Below, in pieces: positions 218-16,108 of a stretch of DNA of 37,303 bases. The position numbers were made by a program, and so were the translations under genes. The DNA lies in contig JAJQGU010000008.1 of NCBI GenBank assembly GCA_021200315.1, positions 1 through 37,303 of the forward strand, written 5' to 3'. This DNA comes from Akkermansiaceae bacterium (lineage in GTDB: Bacteria; Verrucomicrobiota; Verrucomicrobiia; Verrucomicrobiales; Akkermansiaceae). Under the pieces are notes generated by a model that saw nothing but the letters and a program-made list of their open reading frames with translations, was not told where the DNA came from and ran no database searches. Every line of letters begins with the position of its first letter. Within the stretch, counting starts at the first letter, position 1.

Positions 218-1648
218 CTATTTTATCCAAATATTCGGCATTGTTACCTTAAACTCGCGGTCTATTAGATTACATTGCTCTTTGATGATACCTCTTCTTC
301 TCTTCGCTGGCTCAAGGCAGTATGTGTTAAACTCTTCCTTGTCGACATCAGATAGCTTTTCCCAATGCGGGAACAGTAATTTCATGTATGCGACAGCTGT
401 GCGTTTCACAGCTGTGAAATCGCGAATATCAGCATTACTCTCGAATCCGATAAGTTGATCAAATAAGAGGTTATACGAGTTTTGTGTTCGTAACACATGC
501 AGGATTTCTGAGAAGTACTCTACATTGATTGTCCACCCATTGTACGTAATTCCTTTATGGACTCTCGGGATATGCCAGCCTTCGATGAAACAATGGAATC
601 GATCGAGTAGGGCTGATTCTCTAAATGCGTTAGGTAATGAGTCAAAATAACGATCACTCTTCGGTGTCCTATCCTCATTAAGAGGGATGTTTCCCATCAG
701 CATAAGACCACACTCAGATGAAAACTCATTGTTGTCGATTGTCGTTTTTCCAGATTCTAGGTATGATTTAAGTGCAGCCTGTATTTCAGCAGGCTCCTGA
801 AAAATAATGGTTTGAATTTCATCGAAAGCGGTGACATCGTGGTTCTTGATAATGCCGTTCTGTTGCTTGGTCTTATCGTAAAAAAGTTTTGCGCGTGTCA
901 CCTTGCCACCGCTAACAAGCCATCCGTATTTGGAAATATTACCAAAGACATAAGACTTGCCTGTGCCTTTAGGTGCTAATTCTATGGCATTTAAGCGAGG
1001 CTCTATGAAAATCAAAAGACGAGTCAAGATTTCAAGCCTTTGAGCAAGAGATTTGAAGCCATCAGTATCATACTCCATAGCAGAAAGTAAAAAATCAATC
1101 CACTCAAGTGTGGTAAAGGATTTTCTAGCCTCTTTGTAGTACTCGATATCAACTGTTTTATATGGCTTAAACGCCTTGTAGGCAATCATTTCGACGTGGT
1201 TGTCTTTGCCGCCGTCATTTGGCAGCACGGCAAGTTTAATAATTCCCCACTTCTCTCCGTCAACGAGTTCTCCTTTGTGCTTTTCGTATACATAGGGCGG
1301 GATTTGCCCCTCTTTAATTTTTATACCCATATCAGGTATCCCAAAGCGGCGGATATTTTTAACTAGGTCGATATAGACGACAAAGCGGCAAAGAAGTTGG
1401 ATTTCTTCTCCTGCTCCTAAGCGGTCTTTAACTTCTGATTGCTTTTGGGGGATAACAGTTCGTAAGAAGTGTAGAAGTTCGTCTTTACGGATACTGCCAT
1501 CAGGGTTGATATATCTGCGTATAATGAAGTCTTTAACAAAGGAGGGGAGATTACATCCCGCAAATAAGCCGTCAGCAGCATCGCGGTCTTTCAAAATCGC
1601 CATCGCAGAGAAAACTTCACGAATTTTTTGTGCTGTATTAGTGTTCAT
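218..1648 (-). CDS. brxL: BREX system protein BrxL, short form without Lon protease domain
   Basis: This is a 476-residue AAA+ protein and the last gene of the BREX operon. The Walker A motif is APKGTGKS near residue 228 and a Walker B-like AFDEIQ lies near residue 274. They are followed by MLMGNIPLN and a FRESALLDRFH stretch typical of the BrxL/Lon-related ATPase core. Type 1 BrxL proteins are about 680 residues and carry a C-terminal Lon-like domain; here the protein stops after the ATPase and a helical tail. Shorter relatives of about 450 residues are known in the family, so this may be natural rather than truncated. Its ATG lies 3 bp after the pglZ stop, so it is almost certainly cotranslated. 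In the family, BrxL is a DNA-binding hexameric ATPase needed for phage restriction; that role is inferred here. Base composition is AT-rich like the rest of the operon. Confidence 0.85.
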   Translation of the reverse strand: MNTNTAQKIREVFSAMAILKDRDAADGLFAGCNLPSFVKDFIIRRYINPDGSIRKDELLHFLRTVIPQKQSEVKDRLGAGEEIQLLCRFVVYIDLVKNIRRFGIPDMGIKIKEGQIPPYVYEKHKGELVDGEKWGIIKLAVLPNDGGKDNHVEMIAYKAFKPYKTVDIEYYKEARKSFTTLEWIDFLLSAMEYDTDGFKSLAQRLEILTRLLIFIEPRLNAIELAPKGTGKSYVFGNISKYGWLVSGGKVTRAKLFYDKTKQQNGIIKNHDVTAFDEIQTIIFQEPAEIQAALKSYLESGKTTIDNNEFSSECGLMLMGNIPLNEDRTPKSDRYFDSLPNAFRESALLDRFHCFIEGWHIPRVHKGITYNGWTINVEYFSEILHVLRTQNSYNLLFDQLIGFESNADIRDFTAVKRTAVAYMKLLFPHWEKLSDVDKEEFNTYCLEPAKRRRGIIKEQCNLIDREFKVTMPNIWIK

Positions 1649-1651
1649 ATC

Positions 1652-4072
1652 TTAATCAAATAAGTCGGTTTCTTCTTCTGCTCCTGTTTTTACGATCAAA
1701 GTATCAACTTGTTCAAAAGATGCTCCGATGCGCAAGATTACCTTTGTTTCCGTTTGCTGTATATTATCAACTTTAGGGCATTCAAAAGTAGATTCATCCA
1801 CCTTTTGCAGCGTATATTTCTTACAGTTGTATTCTATTTCTATTGTTGGATAAGCTGACGAGGTGATGCCTTTGATTTGATATTGTATATTTGATCTTAT
1901 TGGGGAGATTTTCTTTGTTAAGATTTTAGCATTGATACGAGGACTCACCTCCTTATCAGACACAATAATGATAGGGACTAATACCTCCTCAGGCGTTGCT
2001 CCGCCGTGAGCTCCTATGCCAAGAGCTGTCTTAGATGAAATGGAGTCGTGAGTGAGAGCGCAAGCCGTTAAGCCATCGCCAGTGGTGATCATATACACCT
2101 TGTCTTGTGTAAGTCTATCTATAATAATTTCTGCACAACGCCCCGCATGGTCACTCTTAATTCCCGCAAAGTTCAGCCCTTTGCCGTATTGAGCAAGATA
2201 AGTCAAACCGTGGTCTGAAATGAAAGCTATTTTTTTACCTTGATATTTTTTGAGTGCTTCTTCGACACAGTTTCGAACCAATTTGAACTCTTCGTCTATA
2301 TGAGTGGGGAAAGCTTTATTTTTATGGGCGTTAGCATCTAAGTCACCCATTTTTTTCAACTTATCTCCTGCTGCAAGTTCTTCAAGCTTTTTCTTGTTGT
2401 TCTCGGTGCGAGTGGGGAGTTCCGATGTCGCAATGTTTACCTCGTTTAAGTACATGCCGTAGAATCCCCCTTTTTCTTTAATGACTTGAATAATAAAAGG
2501 AATCCAGTCTACGCCGAGACCATCTATCCAAAGAAAAATATCTATATCAGATCTACCATGCAAGAGCGTTTTCGTTGTTTTGAAGTCATTATGCCAACGT
2601 TCAAATAACATTGCTGATGAGCTATGCTCTGAAAGCATCCGGCTAAGGTTTTCTGATATTGTTTGCGCCGTTTTAGATAATTTGTACTCTGAAAAGTAGC
2701 TGTTAAGCCATGTTTGGCCGGAAGGAACAGGCAGATTGTATTCTGAGGTGTAGTAGTGATAGAAATCAGGGAAAGCTTGCTCAACGTCTTCTCTGCGTAT
2801 TGCTCCTTTCCCGAACCAGTTAATGACCAAATGTCTCTCTTTGGGGGTGTATGCCGTGACGTATTGAAGAGCTGTCTGATAGCCCTGGTTGTCAGCTATT
2901 TCAATGAGTTTGTTTTGGAGGTGAGCAGTATCTTGTTCAGAAAGAGTTATGTCTTCTCTTAACGCTTCGTATGCGGTTTTGAGAAGTTGTCTTCTATCTG
3001 GTATAAAAACGGAATTTGCCGTATCTTCGAAGATATTGAGTTCAATGGCGGAGATTAAAGAATCGAAAGAAAGTGAAGAGCAGCTTTGGATTGCTCGACT
3101 AAAATAGGTGTCCTTTTTTTGGGGTATGAGGAGATAAAGCAATTTTAGAAGCCATCGGGAGTAGTCCGGCTTCGGACTCGGACATTTTAGCCAGTTTGCA
3201 AGTACGTCTGCCTCTAGATTAGAAAAATTAGAATTAAATGTATTGCGTAAAAAGGAAAGAGGATCAAAGTTGTTAGTAAAGTCTATTTCAGACGAAAAGG
3301 TATTCCAAAAGTCGTTATCGCATTTATGTGGTGGCATAATGCTTAAGTCTTTGTCAATCAACATTGATAGCAAAGATTTTATATCAGGGTAAAACTTGAC
3401 ATCTATCGCATTATCACTTGTTGGTAGTGAATTCTTCTTATAGATATCGGAAGCGGTTTTGGATGAAAGTATAATTTTGTGTTTAATCTTGTTATTCGGC
3501 TGCCAAAGATTGACCCAATCTTTAAGGCTTGAGCAAATGCTGTATTTGTTTGACAATCCATTTATATTATTTAGTTTAACGTCATCTGTAAGAATAAGAC
3601 TATAACAATTGCCAGCCTGATTGCAATTATCCCAAATAACGATGGCGGGGTCGTTTACAAAGTTATACATGCGACTCTGCTGTCCTATAAAGGGAAGGTA
3701 TACACGTTGTTGTTCGTCGCGACTCTCTATTCCTTTTATAGTTGTGATGAAACACTTGAACTCATTGTCATTATAAAATCTGGCAATCTCCGAAATAGGA
3801 AATACAACCAAATCATTTTTACCGGAAGAAATTTTTCCCTTTATCCAGTCACACAATGATTTCATTGTTAGCTGCTTATCGTCTGACAAAGCTTCAGCTA
3901 GGGGGCACATAAATGCACCATCTTTGGAACGGCGTGTTTGTATGAACGTATCAAAGTTTTTGTAATCATCGAATAGAACAAAACGACAAGGGAAACGATT
4001 GCCCCCACGCTTCTTGTCATCGTTTATAGCTGCTTCCAGGTCTTTAAGAGATTGATATGGAAAGACGCTCAT
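1652..4072 (-). CDS. pglZ: BREX alkaline-phosphatase-superfamily protein PglZ
   Basis: This is an 806-residue PglZ-family protein. Metal-site motifs of the alkaline phosphatase superfamily are visible in the C-terminal half: WIDGLGVDW near residue 518, ISDHGLTY near residue 620 with a second SDHAG further on, and GIGAHGGATPEE near residue 689. The N-terminal half is divergent and shows nothing I recognise. PglZ is the one protein shared by all BREX types; its biochemical role is not settled, though metal-dependent nuclease or phosphodiesterase activity has been proposed for the family. The start codon lies 29 bp inside the 3' end of brxC, and the stop is 3 bp from brxL, which indicates translational coupling through the whole operon. 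No frameshift or missing metal ligand is apparent. Confidence 0.92.
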   Translation of the reverse strand: MSVFPYQSLKDLEAAINDDKKRGGNRFPCRFVLFDDYKNFDTFIQTRRSKDGAFMCPLAEALSDDKQLTMKSLCDWIKGKISSGKNDLVVFPISEIARFYNDNEFKCFITTIKGIESRDEQQRVYLPFIGQQSRMYNFVNDPAIVIWDNCNQAGNCYSLILTDDVKLNNINGLSNKYSICSSLKDWVNLWQPNNKIKHKIILSSKTASDIYKKNSLPTSDNAIDVKFYPDIKSLLSMLIDKDLSIMPPHKCDNDFWNTFSSEIDFTNNFDPLSFLRNTFNSNFSNLEADVLANWLKCPSPKPDYSRWLLKLLYLLIPQKKDTYFSRAIQSCSSLSFDSLISAIELNIFEDTANSVFIPDRRQLLKTAYEALREDITLSEQDTAHLQNKLIEIADNQGYQTALQYVTAYTPKERHLVINWFGKGAIRREDVEQAFPDFYHYYTSEYNLPVPSGQTWLNSYFSEYKLSKTAQTISENLSRMLSEHSSSAMLFERWHNDFKTTKTLLHGRSDIDIFLWIDGLGVDWIPFIIQVIKEKGGFYGMYLNEVNIATSELPTRTENNKKKLEELAAGDKLKKMGDLDANAHKNKAFPTHIDEEFKLVRNCVEEALKKYQGKKIAFISDHGLTYLAQYGKGLNFAGIKSDHAGRCAEIIIDRLTQDKVYMITTGDGLTACALTHDSISSKTALGIGAHGGATPEEVLVPIIIVSDKEVSPRINAKILTKKISPIRSNIQYQIKGITSSAYPTIEIEYNCKKYTLQKVDESTFECPKVDNIQQTETKVILRIGASFEQVDTLIVKTGAEEETDLFD

Positions 4073-7000
4073 ATTCTTCTAGAAAGTTTATGATTTCATC
4101 TATAACGGAAGAAATCTGCTTTTCGCAAAGAACTTCTAGAAGTTTCTTTGCTTCATCTAGGGAATCTATGTTTTTAATCCTGGTTCTTGCCTTTTGAAGA
4201 GCCTCATCCGACGGCGGTTTAGGAGGATCAGGAGGAGTTGGCTTTGGTGGTGGCGGTGGTGGTGGAAAGGGTGGTTGAGTACTACTTATCCTCCACTCCA
4301 TAACAAGTTTAACCACTTCATCTTCTTTCCAAAGGCCGATAGTTGATGGCGAATGTTGAGTGATGTATTCCAACGCTTTGTCTACTTCTTCGCGGCCACT
4401 AATGTGCAGTTTTGGGTTTGACGTTAGAAAATTCCTTAAACCTTCTCCGAACGCCTCTTTACAATTGAGAATGTTTTGCATCTCAAACCTGTATGTGTTA
4501 ATGAGGGAAAGAGTCTTGTCGTAGAGAGAAGAATTGTCCGACTCACGCTCTCTGCAAATTGTAGAGATATTGTCTATAAGCGTCTTCATCTCGTCGTTCG
4601 GAGGGGTAAGACCGCAGAATACCCCTTTTGGAGTGTATTTTATTGCCCATAGAGGAGCCTTCACTTCGTCCGCAAATTGTACGGTAATAAGCCCCCTAGC
4701 TTTGGCTAAGCTTGCTGATTCTGTCAAGTCCTTATCTAGGCGATTTAAATTAAATAGGCAGACAAACTCTTTGCAGAGTTTTCCTTCTTCGGGCTTTTGA
4801 AATTTGACCTCCAATGCGCTGTTAGGCTTATTATTTTCCCACGCTTTAAACAAAGCGCTTATGCGGTTAGTTAAATCCAAAGATTTCAGAGGCTTTCCTT
4901 GCGTATCAAAGATTTTGCCAACACATGAACGACGGAGTGAGAAAGCAACCATTGCCATGCAAGCGAAATTCTCAAAAAGACCGTAAGGAGGCTTTGTTAA
5001 AACTTTAAACTTATCTGCAAAGTTGAACGGAACGCTTTTGTCCGCAGAAGCAATAATGCTAGCCACTTTATCATCGACTTGTTTGAGCGGATGGTCTGGT
5101 GCTACATTAGTCTTCCATTTCCATTTATCATCGAGTGCACCTTGAATCAAAAACTTTATCGGGCTCATTGGAGCGTTGAGGTTGTTGATGAAGTCGTCAG
5201 GAGAAGGTGCGTCTAGCATCCTCCTGACAATATTTTTGGAATTTTGTTTTTTCCAGAAAGTGCCATATTTTTGGGAATTTGCGAATGCGGGGTGAGCATC
5301 AGGTGCGTATGGATACAGGGCAGGCGTTATCTCAGAATTTACTTTTTGAGGCCATCCTGAAAATGTACATGAGAACTCCTTGATGCCCTTGATGTATACA
5401 GAAGCTGTACCTCGTAGCAGATCAGCTATCCATTCTCTTACCATGCCGCTCGCATTCTCCATATGCGTTTGGGCCTGTCCGGCTAATCCGTGATTTGACG
5501 CGCATTTGTAATTAGCTTGATATTCAATGAAACGCTCGTATTCTTTAACAGAGAAAGTCCTGTCAAAAACGATAAAAACGATTTGTTCCAATTCCTTATC
5601 AAACTCATCTTGCATACATTTCGCGGCGAATGCTTTCAATTCTTCACGTTCCTCATCGTCTTTTGAAAATAGGAAGGCAAAAAACAGCTCGTATGACTTT
5701 GCTGCTTTTCTCGCCTTTTTAATCTCCAGTAATGTTCTATTCTGAAGTCTTGAAAAACAGCCGTATTGATAGGGTCTGTTGATTAAATTGAGACTTTTTG
5801 CAAACGTGTCTTTCTTAGAGTCAATGAGCTTTACGATTTTGCAAGTGTGTTCAAATTCTTTTCGGAGGCTGTTTTTTAACTCTTCAATTTCATTAGTCGG
5901 GAGCGCTGAAAATTGTACCGAGAAGAGACCGCTTGGCGAGCGTTGAATTATCCCGTTTCCGTTAAACCACGTCAGGATGTCATCAATATGCGCCTCGTAG
6001 TCAGTGCCAATAAACAATCTTTTAATGTTTTCTTCTGATGGAGTTACAAGACCGTTATTATTTTCAGCAGATATATTGTTAAAAGCATTTAGGAGGAGAG
6101 TTGCTTTAAATACAGCTAGGTAAGAAGCTCCTTGATTTGCAACCTTTTGTTGATGAGAGTAGAAGCGTTCTGTGACCGCACCATAACTGGTGATGTCCCC
6201 CTGAAAAACCTTGAGTACATAATCCCACAAGTAGTCTGCTGTAATGGTGGCCTTTTTTGAGAATTGCTCCTTGTCGGATAAAAATGATTTAATATCGTCA
6301 TTTTGTCCCAAAAATTCAAAGACGCTGCGACTGGATGAGCCTACAACGGTAGCGTAATGTGCTGCAAGATTAGCCGTGCCTGGGTGTAGAGGGAAGAGAT
6401 TACGAATGTCTTCTTTCGTTGAGTTTTCATCGTTACTTGTTTGGGAGAAAATCTCCAATAATTCTGGATGATCCTTATAAAACGCTTCACTGAGGTCCTT
6501 GTGTTTATCTGCATTGCTTATACTGAACTTTCGGGACATAATTCGAAAAGCAGAAACCGGCTCCATGTTATACTGCATCTTATGGTATCTGCCATCGGTC
6601 TGTTTTTGCTGATCGTTATTCATGTGATCGAAGGCAGATGGATGCGATATTAAGAAGAGATACGAATTATTATTATCACCCTTGGCGAACTCTTCCGCTA
6701 TGGTTTGCAGTGCTTTTAGTGCGGGGGTGCCAATCGTGCTCATCACGTCGGTAAACTCATCCCATACAATCAAAAAGCCGTTATAGTCTCCCTCGGCGGC
6801 AAGAGCATTTTGCGCCTCAATCAGCCAAGAAGTGATATTGTTATTATTTAACCTAAAGCTCAAGGATTCATCACGCAGTGCGCTCGTAGCAGCATTGTAT
6901 GCCTTCGTATCATACCTCCTTAACATATCTACTAACTGATTACAGTCTGACACTATGTTGGACAAATCGTTGTTCCTTTTAATACGCAGAGACCACATTT

Positions 7001-7529
7001 CGTCGTGAGATTCGATGTTATCCGCATAATTATCAAATTCAGTATGGATACGTTCGGAGAAAGTGATCTGGTGCTTTTTCAACGTGTCTGCAACACTCCG
7101 TTGGATGACCAAAGCCAAATCGCTCTCTCTGGTCATGGATTCAAGCCCCTTGATGTTGACGGGAAGAAGGCGTTTGTTTTCGCGGAGTGTTAATATATCT
7201 TGCCTGTCTCGCCGTATTTCAGCCTTCTCACCTTGGTATTCGTTATTTACCCATTGCTCAATTTCCTCCTTTTTATCGCCGAGCAAGTGGCTGATGACGG
7301 CGGCAGCGTGACTCTTTCCCGTACCATAACTGCCGTATAGCCAAAATGATTTGTGGTTGTCGATGTCGTTAGCGCGAACGGATTTAATAACGATTCTTAA
7401 AATGTCGTTAAACTGTTTATTTGCAATAAATGAAGTCCATTCTTTAGCACTTGCTTTGTCTGTTATATCAAACACAGCTCTACAGGCTCGTATCTTTATA
7501 ATGTCTTCGTAACAGGTAGCCGTATCCAT
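4044..7529 (-). CDS. brxC: BREX ATPase BrxC (type 4 variant)
   Basis: This is a 1161-residue P-loop protein. Walker A is GSYGTGKSHAA (residues 66-76) and a Walker B-like segment FLIVWDEFTDVM lies about residues 247-258. The order and length fit the large BrxC/PglY ATPases that form the scaffold of BREX. Near the C-terminus, about residues 1090-1115, there is an unusual proline-rich stretch with a run of seven prolines. It links the body to a short helical tail of about 45 residues that ends inside the pglZ start region. The gene starts 37 bp after brxP stops, with no clear Shine-Dalgarno sequence before the ATG. Family knowledge says BrxC is essential for defence; DNA or nucleotide binding at the P-loop is inferred. 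The length and both ATP motifs suggest it is intact. Confidence 0.9.
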   Translation of the reverse strand: MDTATCYEDIIKIRACRAVFDITDKASAKEWTSFIANKQFNDILRIVIKSVRANDIDNHKSFWLYGSYGTGKSHAAAVISHLLGDKKEEIEQWVNNEYQGEKAEIRRDRQDILTLRENKRLLPVNIKGLESMTRESDLALVIQRSVADTLKKHQITFSERIHTEFDNYADNIESHDEMWSLRIKRNNDLSNIVSDCNQLVDMLRRYDTKAYNAATSALRDESLSFRLNNNNITSWLIEAQNALAAEGDYNGFLIVWDEFTDVMSTIGTPALKALQTIAEEFAKGDNNNSYLFLISHPSAFDHMNNDQQKQTDGRYHKMQYNMEPVSAFRIMSRKFSISNADKHKDLSEAFYKDHPELLEIFSQTSNDENSTKEDIRNLFPLHPGTANLAAHYATVVGSSSRSVFEFLGQNDDIKSFLSDKEQFSKKATITADYLWDYVLKVFQGDITSYGAVTERFYSHQQKVANQGASYLAVFKATLLLNAFNNISAENNNGLVTPSEENIKRLFIGTDYEAHIDDILTWFNGNGIIQRSPSGLFSVQFSALPTNEIEELKNSLRKEFEHTCKIVKLIDSKKDTFAKSLNLINRPYQYGCFSRLQNRTLLEIKKARKAAKSYELFFAFLFSKDDEEREELKAFAAKCMQDEFDKELEQIVFIVFDRTFSVKEYERFIEYQANYKCASNHGLAGQAQTHMENASGMVREWIADLLRGTASVYIKGIKEFSCTFSGWPQKVNSEITPALYPYAPDAHPAFANSQKYGTFWKKQNSKNIVRRMLDAPSPDDFINNLNAPMSPIKFLIQGALDDKWKWKTNVAPDHPLKQVDDKVASIIASADKSVPFNFADKFKVLTKPPYGLFENFACMAMVAFSLRRSCVGKIFDTQGKPLKSLDLTNRISALFKAWENNKPNSALEVKFQKPEEGKLCKEFVCLFNLNRLDKDLTESASLAKARGLITVQFADEVKAPLWAIKYTPKGVFCGLTPPNDEMKTLIDNISTICRERESDNSSLYDKTLSLINTYRFEMQNILNCKEAFGEGLRNFLTSNPKLHISGREEVDKALEYITQHSPSTIGLWKEDEVVKLVMEWRISSTQPPFPPPPPPPKPTPPDPPKPPSDEALQKARTRIKNIDSLDEAKKLLEVLCEKQISSVIDEIINFLEEYERLSISIS

Positions 7530-7566
7530 GATGTTGGCAGATGAGATATGAAATGAAAAGTTGAGT

Positions 7567-10092
7567 TTAATAGTTGAGCAGTGATTTCAGAGCACTTGAC
7601 GCGGTGTAGTTATCAGAAAGTGTGATATGGTTGAGCCCCATGTTTAGCGCAGCGGTAAGGACTCTGTTTTTTGTGCTCGATAGGTACCTTAATGCGCGGG
7701 AGAGGTCATTTTGCGAAGTTCCAAATTCGCGGTATGGCCCGCATTCAGCGGCTTCGCCATATAGGTCAGAAAGTTGAAACATGCTGCTCTTGTTTTCTTG
7801 ACCATATTTAAAGAGAGAATAAGCAACTGCTTCTGGAGAGAGTTTTGCGTATGCGCTTCTTGAAATTTGCTCTCTATCTGCGCAACATTGGTTAAAATCG
7901 ACTCCTATTGGAGAGTATTTAAATGTTTGGATTAAGGCTTGAACAGCGTATTTAATAGTAGTGTCTTTGAAGAAGTATGCAAGGAAGTATTCGAGTGCAA
8001 GTTGATCGAGGTTCTTGCGCGTTATATTAAATCCAACATTGATGGTATTTACATACCATTTCATTAGGGGGCTGTTATGCACTAGGTTGATATGGATAAG
8101 CTCCCACAGAAGCTTTTGACCCTTTTGGCCATTTTGGCTAATTTGGCTGCAGAGTTTACCAAACTCGGTCAACAAACCTTTATCGCCTATGATTTCAGCG
8201 TCTTTGAGCCAAGCCTTAAAGCTGGGGAGTTGTTTCACTCCAAGGCTATTTTCTTCCCAATAGCCTTCTGTATCAGCAAAGAATTCGTCAAGCCATGCTG
8301 CATGTAGACCAAAGGTGCCGTATTTCGATATTTTCATATTAGCAGAGGTGTTAGCGGTGGGTTTAATCAAAGAGTCAGCGACAATGCATCCAACATTATG
8401 GTATTCGAGACACCTATGACAATGTATGCACCTCGATTTGTCTATCTTGACTTCAGGGTAGACAGACAATGCACCGGTTGGGCATTCTAATTCACAGGCT
8501 TCGCAGTTTATGCAGTACGTAACTTTATTGACGGTTTTTCTGAGAAGCGTTCTTAACTGGACGTTGTTATTATCCTGAACAATAAAGGTAAAATCGCTTT
8601 GCGAGGTTCCGTAAGAAATTTCGTAGTTGTAGACATTTTTGTTGAAGAGTAAATCACCAACAAAACCATCAGAGGTTTCTTGTCTACTGTATGCACATAA
8701 AGCAGGTAGCCAGTCAAAAATATCTTTCTGTGCGCCCTTAACTTCGGCAACCCACTCTATGGGTGAGGTTTCTATTCTGAGAGTTGTAGGGTTTTGTGAA
8801 AACTTACCGCTGCTCCGAAGTTTCCATTTTCTCTCGGTTATGTACTCGTGTTTGTTCGGAATATTTCGCTGCTCGGTAATTGCTTCGATTCTGGATAAGA
8901 AGGGTTTTAATTCATTCGGGTAGCAGGTGTTCACAATCATATCATCCCATGGAGAGCCGAATGGACATAAAATACACCCAACGCGAGGCTTACCAACTCT
9001 ATACGCAGCATTGACAGGTAGGTTATGCCTAAATAGGTAAAGAAATACCTCAGTGGTGTTCCAGCGAAGTATTGGTCGAGCGTTTATCACAAAATTGTGT
9101 TTCACTCCTTTCCCAATTCGCGCATATTCGCTTCTTTTATTAGACTCTTCTGCTCTAACACCTTCAAATGCGAGAAACTTCGGATTTTTCTTTTTTATTC
9201 CCGAGCGGAGAAGTCGATAAAGAGGGGAGGTTTTCATCACGGAACAACACCATCTATGGCTGTCGCTGGGAGTTCCGATTTTATCCCAATAGTTAAGTAC
9301 AGATTCGTGATTTTTTGCTGTGAGAAAATTCAGCATGGGAAACCGCGTATGATATAAAGCTTGCGTCTCTTCGTATAGCTGAAGAGACGCGGGTAATTCA
9401 TATCCAGTATCGCTGTATATCACTTCAAAGCTGTTTGGCGGAATTGCTCGTGTGCATAAATCCAAAACAACTTGGGAATCTTTGCCGCCAGAAAATGAAG
9501 CGATGAACTTGTCAATTTTGCTGGAAAGGATTATCTTTTTGCCTGTATATTTAGCTTTGTCCAGAGGAACAATATCAAAACTGTCGCAATTTTCCTGAAC
9601 CAATGCCATTTTCTGTTTTGATTGCTTTTCTACCTTGCAAATCAACGACTCAAAGTCAATCTTGTTTGATTCAGACTTGTTGTATGCCTTATTTACACGA
9701 ACGTAGAAAATGTACGTGTCTCGAATGAACTCTATAGCTTCATATTCAAGCATAAACATTATATCCTCGTTTCGCCTGAGCATTGCTGTCATATCAACAG
9801 GTATAAGCTTGATGGAGCTGTTAGTATCCGCTGTGAACTTTATTGCAGGCTTTGTGTAAATGTCCGCCCCTTTGACGGTAAACATTAACTGCCCACGATA
9901 ATAGTATTGCTTATTGACAGCCCACATGAGTGGCTCGGGGCATTGGGGGTACTCCCAACCAAATCGGGGAAGTTCTAACAAATCCAATTCCTCAAAAAAG
10001 ACAGGGCGTGGTGCTATACCGACAGTCTGCGAAGAGTTGTGCGTTGTCAGCAAAACGCCGCCAGTTTCTGTGTCCCATTCTATTTTGTACAA
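7567..10092 (-). CDS. brxP: BREX type 4 PAPS reductase/ferredoxin-like protein BrxP
   Basis: This 841-residue protein marks the operon as type 4. An N-terminal region of about 190 residues is followed by a PAPS-reductase/N-type ATP-pyrophosphatase domain: the PP-loop SGGKDS at 201-206, SDTGYE near 227, HRWCC at 279-283, EGVRAEES near 310, and GCILCP at 372-377. A two-cluster 4Fe-4S ferredoxin module follows (CINCEACELECP at 527-538; CIHCHRCLEYHNVGC at 555-569), then about 270 residues with no recognised domain. It resembles the ATP- and cysteine-dependent sulfur-transfer enzymes that include DndC. The start codon is TTG: the conserved family start MYKIEWD begins there, an in-frame stop lies about 30 bp upstream, and no ATG intervenes. 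It is the first gene of the operon. A role in DNA or nucleotide sulfur chemistry is inference. Confidence 0.93.
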   Translation of the reverse strand: MYKIEWDTETGGVLLTTHNSSQTVGIAPRPVFFEELDLLELPRFGWEYPQCPEPLMWAVNKQYYYRGQLMFTVKGADIYTKPAIKFTADTNSSIKLIPVDMTAMLRRNEDIMFMLEYEAIEFIRDTYIFYVRVNKAYNKSESNKIDFESLICKVEKQSKQKMALVQENCDSFDIVPLDKAKYTGKKIILSSKIDKFIASFSGGKDSQVVLDLCTRAIPPNSFEVIYSDTGYELPASLQLYEETQALYHTRFPMLNFLTAKNHESVLNYWDKIGTPSDSHRWCCSVMKTSPLYRLLRSGIKKKNPKFLAFEGVRAEESNKRSEYARIGKGVKHNFVINARPILRWNTTEVFLYLFRHNLPVNAAYRVGKPRVGCILCPFGSPWDDMIVNTCYPNELKPFLSRIEAITEQRNIPNKHEYITERKWKLRSSGKFSQNPTTLRIETSPIEWVAEVKGAQKDIFDWLPALCAYSRQETSDGFVGDLLFNKNVYNYEISYGTSQSDFTFIVQDNNNVQLRTLLRKTVNKVTYCINCEACELECPTGALSVYPEVKIDKSRCIHCHRCLEYHNVGCIVADSLIKPTANTSANMKISKYGTFGLHAAWLDEFFADTEGYWEENSLGVKQLPSFKAWLKDAEIIGDKGLLTEFGKLCSQISQNGQKGQKLLWELIHINLVHNSPLMKWYVNTINVGFNITRKNLDQLALEYFLAYFFKDTTIKYAVQALIQTFKYSPIGVDFNQCCADREQISRSAYAKLSPEAVAYSLFKYGQENKSSMFQLSDLYGEAAECGPYREFGTSQNDLSRALRYLSSTKNRVLTAALNMGLNHITLSDNYTASSALKSLLNY

Positions 10093-10191: not shown

Positions 10192-10398
10192 GCATAGCGG
10201 ATTTTGAATCCGCCATGCAGAAATACCCTCTGAAATTCGCATCTAATCCACTCTGAACACAATGTTTCTTTCCCAAAATACATAACGCCATTATATAAAT
10301 TCAGGCCGAATTTCCGGAAACGAAATCGAAGAGCAAGCAGTTTTTTCTCAATAAAAATCGAACTTTCTGGTTGACAGCGGATTCAAAATCCGCTATGC
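10192..10398 (+). repeat. 207-bp palindrome-ended dispersed repeat, copy 1
   Basis: The element begins with a near-perfect palindrome (arms GCATAGCGGATT and AATCCGCCATGC) and ends with the matching arm TTGACAGCGGATT...AATCCGCTATGC, so the ends are inverted repeats of each other. The centre holds a third hairpin, AAATTC-AGGCC-GAATTT. A second copy of exactly the same length lies inverted at 20639-20845, with roughly three-quarters identity by eye. There is no ORF inside, and no target-site duplication is evident. It reads as a MITE- or REP-like non-autonomous element. It sits between the BREX promoter region and the macrodomain gene. Confidence 0.8.
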
Positions 10399-10581
10399 AT
10401 CGGTCTTCCTCTTAGCCCGCGAAATGGCCCCAGCAAATTGAATCTGAGCCTTTTTCATCCAAATCGAAACTTTTGCATAGACTCTTGAACTGAAATTTGT
10501 TAAAAACCCTTGCTTCACTATGAGGTAAGAAATATCCTCCTTTATAGATGTTCCCATAATTCCTCCAACAAAATTAACACT
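10399..10581. other. Non-coding DNA between the repeat and the macrodomain gene
   Basis: No gene is seen. Positions 10421-10446 resemble an internal segment of the 207-bp repeat next to its first palindrome (compare GAAATGGCCCC with GAAACGGCCCC in copy 2), so part of this stretch may be a decayed third copy. No clear promoter or Shine-Dalgarno sequence precedes the gene at 10582. Confidence 0.35.
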
Positions 10582-11091
10582 ATGCCATTACACATTATCC
10601 AAAACGACATTACCAAGATGGAGGTGGATGCTATTGTCAATGCAGCCAATACTGCCCTGCTGGGTGGAGGTGGCGTGGATGCCTGCATTCACAGCGCTGC
10701 GGGGGCATCTCTTTACGAGGAATGCAAAACCCTTGGCGGATGCGAAGTAGGGAGCGCCAAAATGACTGGTGCTGGCAATTTGCCATGCAAATACGTCATC
10801 CATGCCGTGGGCCCGCGCTACCGCGATGGGAAACACGGAGAGGCCGCAACACTCGCCTCCTGTTACAGCACTTCACTTCGACTCGCAGCTGAGGCAAAGT
10901 GCCAAACCATCGCCTTCCCTCTAATTTCTTGTGGTATCTATGGCTACCCCCTCAAAGAGGGCATACAAATCGCATGCGACACCATCAACGACTTTCTACG
11001 CGAGCACGATTTGACTGTCTACCTAGTCATCTTTGATAGCAAAACGGTGCAATTTTGCAAAGAGCGGGAGCTCCTGCCAAAATTCTGCTGA
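10582..11091 (+). CDS. Macrodomain protein, probable O-acetyl-ADP-ribose deacetylase
   Basis: This is a 169-residue single-domain macrodomain protein. The family signature is clear: an N-terminal strand and QNDIT, VDAIVNAAN (catalytic/substrate Asn), LLGGGGVDACIHSAAG (ribose-binding loop), then TGAGNLPCKYVIHAVGP, IAFPLISCGIYGYP (phosphate loop) and VIFDSKTVQFC near the end. This is the YmdB/MacroD subclass, which hydrolyses O-acetyl-ADP-ribose or removes ADP-ribose from proteins. I chose the ATG at 10582 because the conserved domain starts right after it; an upstream TTG at 10510 would add 24 unrelated residues. The gene stands alone between the 207-bp repeat and an ankyrin remnant. A link to phage defence or toxin reversal is possible from its position but not shown. 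Confidence 0.9.
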   Translation: MPLHIIQNDITKMEVDAIVNAANTALLGGGGVDACIHSAAGASLYEECKTLGGCEVGSAKMTGAGNLPCKYVIHAVGPRYRDGKHGEAATLASCYSTSLRLAAEAKCQTIAFPLISCGIYGYPLKEGIQIACDTINDFLREHDLTVYLVIFDSKTVQFCKERELLPKFC

Positions 11092-12048: not shown

Positions 12049-13557
12049 TCATTTCTTACCCTTCTCATCTTTTGCTGCTTGTTTCTCTTCCTTCTCATGG
12101 CGATTGATGCCCTCGATGAGGAGCTTGTCGAGTTCCTGAGCGAGGGGCAGAACGTTGTAGTGAGGGTCATCAGCGATGAAGTAGGCGGCAGTATTGCCAC
12201 GCATGAAGTAGATAGCGGATTTCTCGCTCCCCTCAGCGATGGAGCCATCGGAAGCTAAGCGTGGCACGGTGCAGATGTCCCAATCCCCAACCAAGCGCGG
12301 GTTGATTTGCATGAGGTTTTTTATATCTGATTTTTCCATCTTCTTCACCTTGGCATCGACAACAATTCGTCTCCTCACTCCAGTTTCATTCTCATACAAT
12401 TGAAATCCAAGCAAAGCGTAGCGTGCATCAGTCGGGTTGAAAGCGTGATAAATGCAATAGCGCAAGAGCACATTTTTGTCCTTCATCCGTGCCCAGAGGC
12501 AATACTTGCCTCCTCGTTGTTCAATCATCGTCATTCCTCTCGTTAAAAGAGACTGCACAAAATCACGGCAGCCCACCCCCGTGTTCACATTGGGAATGAT
12601 GTTCTTTTCTTCCAAAGGATTGAGCCCCAATTCTTCGGCAACACCGTTGACCTGATCCGCCCAGAACAGGTCAGCACTTTCATCCCATTCCTTGTTCTTA
12701 TATCGCTTCCACGCATTTTCGGCGAAGCAGGGTGTGTTGCCCCTAGTATTCCTATCCCAACGCACATGATGCTTCTCGCGTATGGCATCATCTTCTTCAT
12801 AGAACTTCTTAGCTTTTTCTATATCCTTGGGTCGCCTTTCTTTATTATGCACGATTGTTAATATTTCGTGGCAGATTTGCTTCATTTCATCTACAGTTGG
12901 CTCTTCTGCAATGTATGGAAGAGCTCTATCGGGAGGCACGGGGTGAGACACATGATTCACATATCTCTCACCATAAGATTTCACTTGTAATTCATAACGA
13001 TACTCATAATATCTCACTAGTTCCCTTTCGCTTTTGACCTCATCGCCCTTATACTGACTCCAGCGATTTTTTAGTCGTTCTACATAGAAAATATTATCTT
13101 CTTTTACTAACCAATCTGCGTCGCTAAACTTTAATCTCTCAGGATTCATGGGCCTAAAACAGCCTTCCTCCAATCGCTCCACCAATGGTATAGGAGGCGT
13201 TTCCTCCTTCCATCTCCATATTTCGATTTCAAAGGCTCGATGCCCTTGCATATCAAACGCGGCATTTTTATAAAATATATATCTACCTATCGTCACGCCA
13301 GACAAAAGAGAATCAGCATCTTCTGCTTGACAGTTGATATTATAGACTTCAGTCAATTTCGCATATTCTTCTTCGCTCACACCTACAAATTGAAGAAGAT
13401 TCTTTTTGAAAGACGGGGGTGGTGGCTCTATGTATAAATTATTTGTTACAAGTCGAAATTCATCGCGCTCGGTAGTTGCTTCAGCCAAACATAAGTTTGC
13501 AATAGTTAGAGCAACCATCAGGGAACAGCATATTTTAATGAGCTTCTTTTTCATCAT
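12049..13557 (-). CDS. Secreted protein of unknown function (502 aa)
   Basis: I do not recognise this family. The N-terminus is a good Sec signal peptide: MMKKKLIKICC, then a hydrophobic core with a probable cut after LCLA near residue 25. The rest is soluble, rich in charged and aromatic residues, and ends in a lysine/glutamate-rich tail. Cysteines are scattered (for example GVGCRDFVQSLLTRG and RYCIYHAFN in the C-terminal half). It is the last gene of a three-gene operon, 25 bp after the 841-residue gene. The tight layout suggests the three products act together at the cell surface or in the periplasm, but no function can be assigned. Two ATGs are adjacent; the first is listed. Confidence 0.75.
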   Translation of the reverse strand: MMKKKLIKICCSLMVALTIANLCLAEATTERDEFRLVTNNLYIEPPPPSFKKNLLQFVGVSEEEYAKLTEVYNINCQAEDADSLLSGVTIGRYIFYKNAAFDMQGHRAFEIEIWRWKEETPPIPLVERLEEGCFRPMNPERLKFSDADWLVKEDNIFYVERLKNRWSQYKGDEVKSERELVRYYEYRYELQVKSYGERYVNHVSHPVPPDRALPYIAEEPTVDEMKQICHEILTIVHNKERRPKDIEKAKKFYEEDDAIREKHHVRWDRNTRGNTPCFAENAWKRYKNKEWDESADLFWADQVNGVAEELGLNPLEEKNIIPNVNTGVGCRDFVQSLLTRGMTMIEQRGGKYCLWARMKDKNVLLRYCIYHAFNPTDARYALLGFQLYENETGVRRRIVVDAKVKKMEKSDIKNLMQINPRLVGDWDICTVPRLASDGSIAEGSEKSAIYFMRGNTAAYFIADDPHYNVLPLAQELDKLLIEGINRHEKEEKQAAKDEKGKK

Positions 13558-13582
13558 GGCTTTAGTTTGTATCGTTTTGAGA

Positions 13583-16108
13583 CTATTTCTGCGTACTTGC
13601 TTTTTCTTTAGGTGTAAAGCTTTCGAGTTTTATCATGCAGGGCAATATTCCATTACCAGTATAAGAGGAACCAAAATCAGATCTTGGATCTATCCATCTT
13701 TTCCTCGTCGAATTATATAGAGGTGGAGTGGAATCGTAAATAGTAGATTTGTAAACGTTAAACACATGATTAGGAGCCTTGGCTATACAAAGTGTTTTAT
13801 CTTTTTCAATCCCACAGATTCTTGGAAGAACCGCAGACAAACACGCCACGTCTGCGCATATTACTTTAGGATCATTGTCACCTCGCTTAGTTTGATTACT
13901 AGCAGACTTTGTTTCAAAGCCAGTCAAGTGAAGAACCATTCTTTCTATATCCAAAACAAACTCTTTACCTGAAAGTGGAATTGGCATATCTGAGATTGGC
14001 AGAGAATAGGTTTTATCCCTCTGAAGGCTATAAAATGAACCCAAATATGATTTCCCTTTATGCAATACGTTATCCAAATTATTCCATTTCAAAACGGGAT
14101 GATACGTAGTAAGAGAATAAAGAGCAGTAGAAATTGCTTCTTGTATGGCGGATTTTTGGGGGTTATTATTTGCATACACTTCTTTGCACATCGCTTTTAG
14201 AGCATCTTCCCATACTAGCACAGGATGTTCATCAACCGCGCCCTCAATATTCACAGATCCATCGATTAACCCATCTTTTCGCCACGTAGAATCATCAAAA
14301 ATTAAATACACATCTTTAAGCGTAGTATATGCATAATCTGTTGGATTTTCCTCTATTACCTCGTTACCATGTTTATCGTGCTTAAGCCTATGCAAAGACC
14401 ACTTGTTGCGCATTTTGCAGTAACGAATTTTATCGGGTAAACTATTTTCCATCTGCATATCCACCTCATAAATATCATACAGCGAAGTATGGCCTGATAT
14501 CTTTATTCCACTTGCTAACTTTATTGCACGTTCTTTCTTTGTTTTACTTTCTTCCTGTTTCCTCTCGATTTGATTCAAGTTATCAGCCAAATTTTCCTTG
14601 GTATATTCATAATATGTACCAGTGTCTAATACCTCACTTCGTCCCAAAGCATCTTTTTCTGCCTTTAGCGACCACGAATCTCCCAAGTCCTGTCTCACTG
14701 CAACAAGAACCCTAAAGGTAACTCCAGACGCTCTGGTTTTCAGCGCAATGGGTGATTGCTCGGGTTTTCGACAAAATCCTTGAATCTTATTGCATCCATC
14801 TGTCCACTTGTAGTGCCATTGGTTATCCTCTCCTGACACTATTGTGTAATAAGTTGGTTCTTCTTTTTCACTACCTCTCTGTCCTTGTCTATGCTTGATG
14901 TTGCTGAACTCTGCGCGAATAACACGATTCTGTAAATCTTGTGCATGCGTTTGATCAGTTGGCTGAAATTGCTGCGTAACGGTTATACCATCAGGAGTGG
15001 CTGCATCTTGGGGGCCATCTTTCCAATCACTCGTAATTGCAAGAATATAAAATTCCTTATTTTGCTTGACTTCGGCAAGGACGACAGCCTTAAGCAAAGT
15101 TCCTTTATCCTGTTCTTCTACGATTGCCCAATACTTATCGTTAAGATGATTTTGAGCCGTTTTTGTCAACCTCACTTTCGCAGAAAAGGGCAACAAGTGG
15201 AAGGATGGAGGTGCTACTTTTTTCTTCGATTTATTCGAAATTTTAAAAAATGAATCTTTCAAACGTGAACTGCTGTGCAAATATAAGAAACCGTCATATT
15301 GATTCTTGCTCTCATTGATTGCTTTTTGAAATTCTTTTCCCCAATTTAAATCATTTTTCTTCCTACTCTCTTTGGCAATTTTTATGCCCTTATTTCTAAG
15401 CTTATCAAACATTTCCCATTCTAATGGCCAGAATTCACCCAACTCCGCCTCAATAGAATTTAATTTTTGAGGGAGTTTTTTATCTACCCATGTACTTATG
15501 ACTTGATATTCCTCCTCACCATATTTTCTATCTAACATAGCTACCCATGGGCACTTTGAAAAATCCTTTACTGGCGGCTTCTCTAAGATTTGTTGGTAAA
15601 TTTCAGGTTGGACATTTCCGTATGGATGAAATTTCTTCCACTTGGTAAAGTCAATATGAGCTAAGGCCCGAACTCTCCCCTTTATTTTCAAACCTGCGTG
15701 AGATATAGCATAAAATGATGAAGAAGGTCTGCACCAAAACGTTGGGTTCCCTTTATAAGCAGAGAAATAATCTAGGCATCCCCAAACGCACTCCCAGTGG
15801 ATTTGCGCATTTTCTTCCTTATACTTCACTCGATACGGGTGAACGATTTTGATTTGCGCGCCGAGTAAATCTGGCACCTTACCATTCTCCACTTGTGGTG
15901 CGTAAAAAAGCTGCGCTCCATCTAAGCCCGCTGGATTATCTACATAATCACTTGACTGTACCTCATCTAACAGATGCGGCGTAAGTGAAACAAAATGAGA
16001 TTCTATATCCGCATTCGCTCCCTGACTTGCTGAGCCAGCACTCTGCCCCCACGCGATGCCTAGCAGGGAGAGCATCGTGCACCATCTTATCTTTTTTTCT
16101 ATGTTCAT
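13583..16108 (-). CDS. Secreted protein with a possible transglutaminase-like C-terminal domain (841 aa)
   Basis: A signal peptide is present (MNIEKKIRWC, hydrophobic core to GIAWGQSAG, cut about residue 24). No family is recognisable over the first 640 residues, which contain several W/C-rich segments. In the last 120 residues the order of motifs fits a transglutaminase-like cysteine-protease fold: VICADVACLSAVLPRICGI (Cys751), then NHVFNVYK (His781), then RWIDPRSDF (Asp807). This matches the general C...H...D layout with CxDxA and a W-x-D-P tail. The match is by eye and the domain call is an inference. The ATG lies 1 bp after the stop of the beta-propeller gene, so the two are cotranslated. 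Base composition is AT-rich, unlike the central region. Confidence 0.7.
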   Translation of the reverse strand: MNIEKKIRWCTMLSLLGIAWGQSAGSASQGANADIESHFVSLTPHLLDEVQSSDYVDNPAGLDGAQLFYAPQVENGKVPDLLGAQIKIVHPYRVKYKEENAQIHWECVWGCLDYFSAYKGNPTFWCRPSSSFYAISHAGLKIKGRVRALAHIDFTKWKKFHPYGNVQPEIYQQILEKPPVKDFSKCPWVAMLDRKYGEEEYQVISTWVDKKLPQKLNSIEAELGEFWPLEWEMFDKLRNKGIKIAKESRKKNDLNWGKEFQKAINESKNQYDGFLYLHSSSRLKDSFFKISNKSKKKVAPPSFHLLPFSAKVRLTKTAQNHLNDKYWAIVEEQDKGTLLKAVVLAEVKQNKEFYILAITSDWKDGPQDAATPDGITVTQQFQPTDQTHAQDLQNRVIRAEFSNIKHRQGQRGSEKEEPTYYTIVSGEDNQWHYKWTDGCNKIQGFCRKPEQSPIALKTRASGVTFRVLVAVRQDLGDSWSLKAEKDALGRSEVLDTGTYYEYTKENLADNLNQIERKQEESKTKKERAIKLASGIKISGHTSLYDIYEVDMQMENSLPDKIRYCKMRNKWSLHRLKHDKHGNEVIEENPTDYAYTTLKDVYLIFDDSTWRKDGLIDGSVNIEGAVDEHPVLVWEDALKAMCKEVYANNNPQKSAIQEAISTALYSLTTYHPVLKWNNLDNVLHKGKSYLGSFYSLQRDKTYSLPISDMPIPLSGKEFVLDIERMVLHLTGFETKSASNQTKRGDNDPKVICADVACLSAVLPRICGIEKDKTLCIAKAPNHVFNVYKSTIYDSTPPLYNSTRKRWIDPRSDFGSSYTGNGILPCMIKLESFTPKEKASTQK

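Follow-up and report, generated by a model that had tools for sequence, protein, structure and literature searches.

Operon layout and surrounding features

The window (the whole stretch of DNA analysed here, 37,303 nucleotides) makes up all of contig C4 in an assembly of 75 contigs and 2.2 Mb from an Akkermansiaceae bacterium, and its left end is the contig end. Positions 218-10092 are occupied by four genes in the order brxP-brxC-pglZ-brxL:

7567-10092, minus strand: brxP, TTG start, 841 aa
4044-7529, minus strand: brxC, 1161 aa
1652-4072, minus strand: pglZ, 806 aa
218-1648, minus strand: brxL, 476 aa

All four ORFs lie where the first-pass annotation, which had read them as a complete type 4 BREX operon on one strand, had placed them, and its spacing was reproduced, with 37 bp between brxP and brxC, a 29-bp overlap of brxC and pglZ, and 3 bp between pglZ and brxL. 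That annotation had proposed profile searches of the four proteins as a check; the best PADLOC matches (BrxP 1.7e-264, BrxC 2.1e-264, PglZ 6.4e-127, BrxL 1.8e-209) agree with its assignment and place the first gene inside the BrxP family. PglZ belongs to the type 4 subfamily (NCBIfam NF033445, BREX_PglZ_4; 542.6 bits for a cut-off of 140) and BrxL matches NCBIfam TIGR02688 (414 bits for a cut-off of 329). BrxP carries the PAPS reductase, ferredoxin and DUF4007/SspB-like tail that replace PglX in type 4, BrxC and BrxL are encoded in the same operon as BrxP and PglZ, and the P-C-Z-L order is common to most of the related loci fetched. Profile searches found no methyltransferase among the operon genes, as had been claimed. 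The window operon, with four long frames and intact motifs, is a complete and ordinary BREX type 4 operon (brxPCZL): it agrees with known systems in its genes and their order, in profile families and in domain fusions, and nothing essential differs.

The possibility that a pglX gene is hidden to the left of the operon, which would have spoken against the first reading, was rejected. The first 55 bases of the window are identical to the end of contig C32 (4413-4467 of 4467) and to the end of C46, and overlap orientations leave C32 as the sole leftward neighbour, a joining that derives from assembly overlaps and not from reads. C32 is a 4467-bp repeat contig encoding an RHS/YD-repeat protein (named by eye from its sequence) that is open at the far end, and therefore no pglX adjoins brxL.

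Upstream of brxP there is a perfect 22-bp inverted repeat (10192-10213 and 10377-10398), each arm of which contains its own short palindrome, followed by a macro-domain gene (10510-11091) divergent from brxP; another macro-like ORF was seen near the related operon L054. Positions 12049-16108 hold a pair of AT-rich genes whose products (502 and 841 aa) begin like signal peptides and match nothing in Pfam; relatives of the 841-aa product occur in a single other genome among 40 of the genus. The window also encodes a GH20 protein, for which the best PDB match is 7cbn.

Domain architecture of the operon products

The following parts were delimited in BrxP:

residues about 1-110: N-terminal domain
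residues about 116-385: CysH-like PAPS reductase/PP-loop domain, with SGGKDS at 201-206, CC at 282-283 and CxxC at 373-376
residues 527-569: 8-Cys ferredoxin, between the CysH-like and SspB-like parts
residues 581-841: SspB-like C-terminal domain

Pfam recognized PAPS_reduct (1.1e-30) and Fer4 in this protein, and its DUF4007 profile gave no score. An AlphaFold (AF2) model built with 37 sequences has a mean pLDDT of 88.5; in this predicted structure, residues 581-841 match SspB (6juf) with a Z of 21.0 over 254 residues, and residues 116-385 match the CysH-type structure 7lhs with a Z of 18.2, in line with the PAPS reductase reported by the first-pass annotation. No row of the 37-row alignment departs from cysteine at any of the twelve motif positions (282, 283, 373, 376 and eight in the ferredoxin). 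The model supports a view of BrxP as a putative SspD-type sulfur-transfer enzyme and SspB-type DNA-binding component fused in one chain.

The three other products also retain their motifs:

BrxC: SspC-related AAA+ ATPase, Walker A at G66-S73 and Walker B (WDEF) at 256-259
PglZ: type 4, alkaline-phosphatase-superfamily hydrolase, with conserved D517, T556, D620, H621, H642 and H689

The BrxC motifs are conserved in 52 clade members and the listed PglZ residues in 48, and BrxC also matches the PADLOC profile of SspC (1.3e-24). BrxL contains a BrxL_ATPase domain (Pfam, 2.3e-113), and its Walker A and R350 are conserved. It matches the BrxL chain 8emc (3.8e-45); since the match covers only residues 12-458 of the 679 aa of that chain, the 476-aa product is a short form without the C-terminal part.

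The window operon has BrxC, PglZ and to some extent BrxL-type components in common with BREX types 1-3, but it has no PglX methyltransferase and a PAPS reductase stands in its place. With Ssp systems (SspABCD-SspE) it shares an SspD-like PAPS reductase, an SspB-like domain and an SspC-like ATPase; in contrast to these systems, BrxP unites the SspD-like and SspB-like parts in one chain, and the operon includes PglZ and BrxL. SspE was not found among the operon genes, where PglZ and BrxL occupy the place of the effector, and the separate sspB, sspC and sspD genes with an sspE effector that define Ssp are not found in it.

A second operon and the distribution of BrxP

A second complete type 4 operon occurs in the same genome on contig C56, with brxP, brxC, pglZ, brxL and a cysteine desulfurase gene after brxL:

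L005:4033-10537 and L013:544-5660: second operon (contig C56)

Its BrxP is 29% identical to that of the window, and two further desulfurase-like genes were found in the genome. Contamination is an unlikely origin for this operon: 38 of the 40 sampled genus genomes contain relatives, mostly at 55-68% identity, of a gene that C56 carries ca. 6 kb past the desulfurase, which indicates that this contig is very probably part of the genome of the window.

BrxP relatives were detected at 80 loci by a genome scan, and the nearest ones, at 63% identity, come from Prevotella and Bacteroides. Tree placement puts the window BrxP with four Bacteroidota sequences (support 100) and the C56 BrxP among Bacillota. 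Full-length BrxP was found in none of the 194 other sampled genomes of the family, the window's own being the only one of 195; among the matches listed, those in other family genomes were partial and mostly involved the CysH-like part. The simplest reading is that the two operons were acquired horizontally and separately. No close genus relative was found for either flanking protein tried in the search for an empty insertion site.

BrxP was also present on each of two contigs (L101 and L120) of the Selenomonadales bin CAMJQS01, possibly a second two-system genome. One viral contig (L124:7965-17679) bears a complete brxPCZL set followed by a small endolysin-like ORF (judged by eye). In other viral contigs (L126, L128-L131), two BrxP-like PAPS-reductase genes (578 and about 535 aa) stand in tandem, and brxC was not seen on the stretches of them examined.

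A putative reader gene in related operons

In 18 of 52 window-type operons (about a third), brxP and brxC are separated by a stand-alone gene with a product of ca. 145 aa; none of 25 C56-type operons has it. Examples are:

L044:12517-12957: SBD gene between brxP and brxC
L046:12519-12938: SBD gene between brxP and brxC

Pfam and PADLOC gave no name to this small protein; it was identified only by a profile of the ca. 145-aa proteins run against the PDB, which matched the sulfur-binding domain (SBD) SBDHga1 (8h0l, E 3.7e-25). Sulfur-binding domains such as SBDHga1 read phosphorothioated (PT) DNA. At this place the window has only the 37-bp spacer, and no SBD reader was found anywhere in its genome by searches in which the positive controls worked. 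A cysteine desulfurase gene occurs in 1 of 49 window-type operons versus 20 of 24 in the C56-type sister clade, where it follows brxL. Its absence from the window operon is usual for this clade; according to PMC12839542, the gene is present in 56% of type 4 taxa.

These patterns suggest, with our confidence evenly divided, that type 4 comprises two deep lineages, one Bacillota-type with a BrxC of ca. 1400 aa and its own desulfurase, the other Bacteroidota-type with a BrxC of ca. 1150 aa, no desulfurase and, in about one third of cases, an SBD gene. As one genome holds both, the desulfurase of one system could supply the other. Among the publications consulted, none was found that joins BREX with an SBD reader as an operon gene, and no priority is claimed.

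Proposed function

The first-pass annotation regarded self-recognition in type 4 as much less studied than in type 1. This is outdated, since published work assigns DNA phosphorothioation to BREX type 4 (PMC12839542, PMC11931770, PMC12707154), an assignment that these papers credit to Yuan et al. 2024/2026; the value then claimed for the locus is outdated for the same reason. From this literature we infer that the window operon most likely has PT and anti-phage activity. Because BrxP combines CysH and SspB folds and BrxC matches SspC, the operon can be described as PglZ and BrxL combined with an Ssp-like PT writer. We are accordingly quite confident that brxPCZL is a type 4 defence operon in which host DNA is marked by PT and PglZ and BrxL are directed against unmarked DNA. 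BrxP and the SspC-like ATPase BrxC would replace a non-bridging oxygen by sulfur at sequence-specific sites of host DNA, with sulfur supplied by a cysteine desulfurase encoded elsewhere, either a housekeeping enzyme or the one beside the C56 operon, and PglZ and BrxL would act on unmarked invading DNA, blocking phage replication. The SBD gene of clade relatives and the desulfurase after brxL in the sister clade point toward PT; the window operon itself contains neither a desulfurase nor a PT reader, which counts against it.

The PP-loop domain also resembles the tRNA thiolases TtuA and NcsA, which have Fe-S clusters, and BrxP of a genuine type 4 system might make another sulfur-dependent modification, such as a thiolated base, instead of backbone PT. 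This is very improbable given the SspB fusion and the SspC-like partner, the SBD neighbour genes in the clade and the assignment of PT to type 4 in the literature. The operon might also be a leftover of horizontal transfer that has lost its activity in this bacterium. This would fit its location in an island of low G+C (about 0.41 versus 0.65 for the chromosome), its restriction to a single sampled family member and its want of reader and desulfurase; we nevertheless hold it to be very unlikely, as the four long frames are intact with all conserved motifs and several relatives have the identical minimal P-C-Z-L set (e.g. L043, Methanosphaera plasmid).

With PT marking as the preferred reading, the explanation of self-marking is already published, and the interest of the locus lies in its context, namely two lineages in one genome and a reader gene in relatives. 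It provides an intact example of PT-type BREX in a family where 194 other sampled genomes have none. The two divergent operons in one cell would let one ask whether their motifs differ and whether a sulfur donor is shared, and the SBD gene of related operons suggests a way in which PT marks may be sensed by some type 4 systems.
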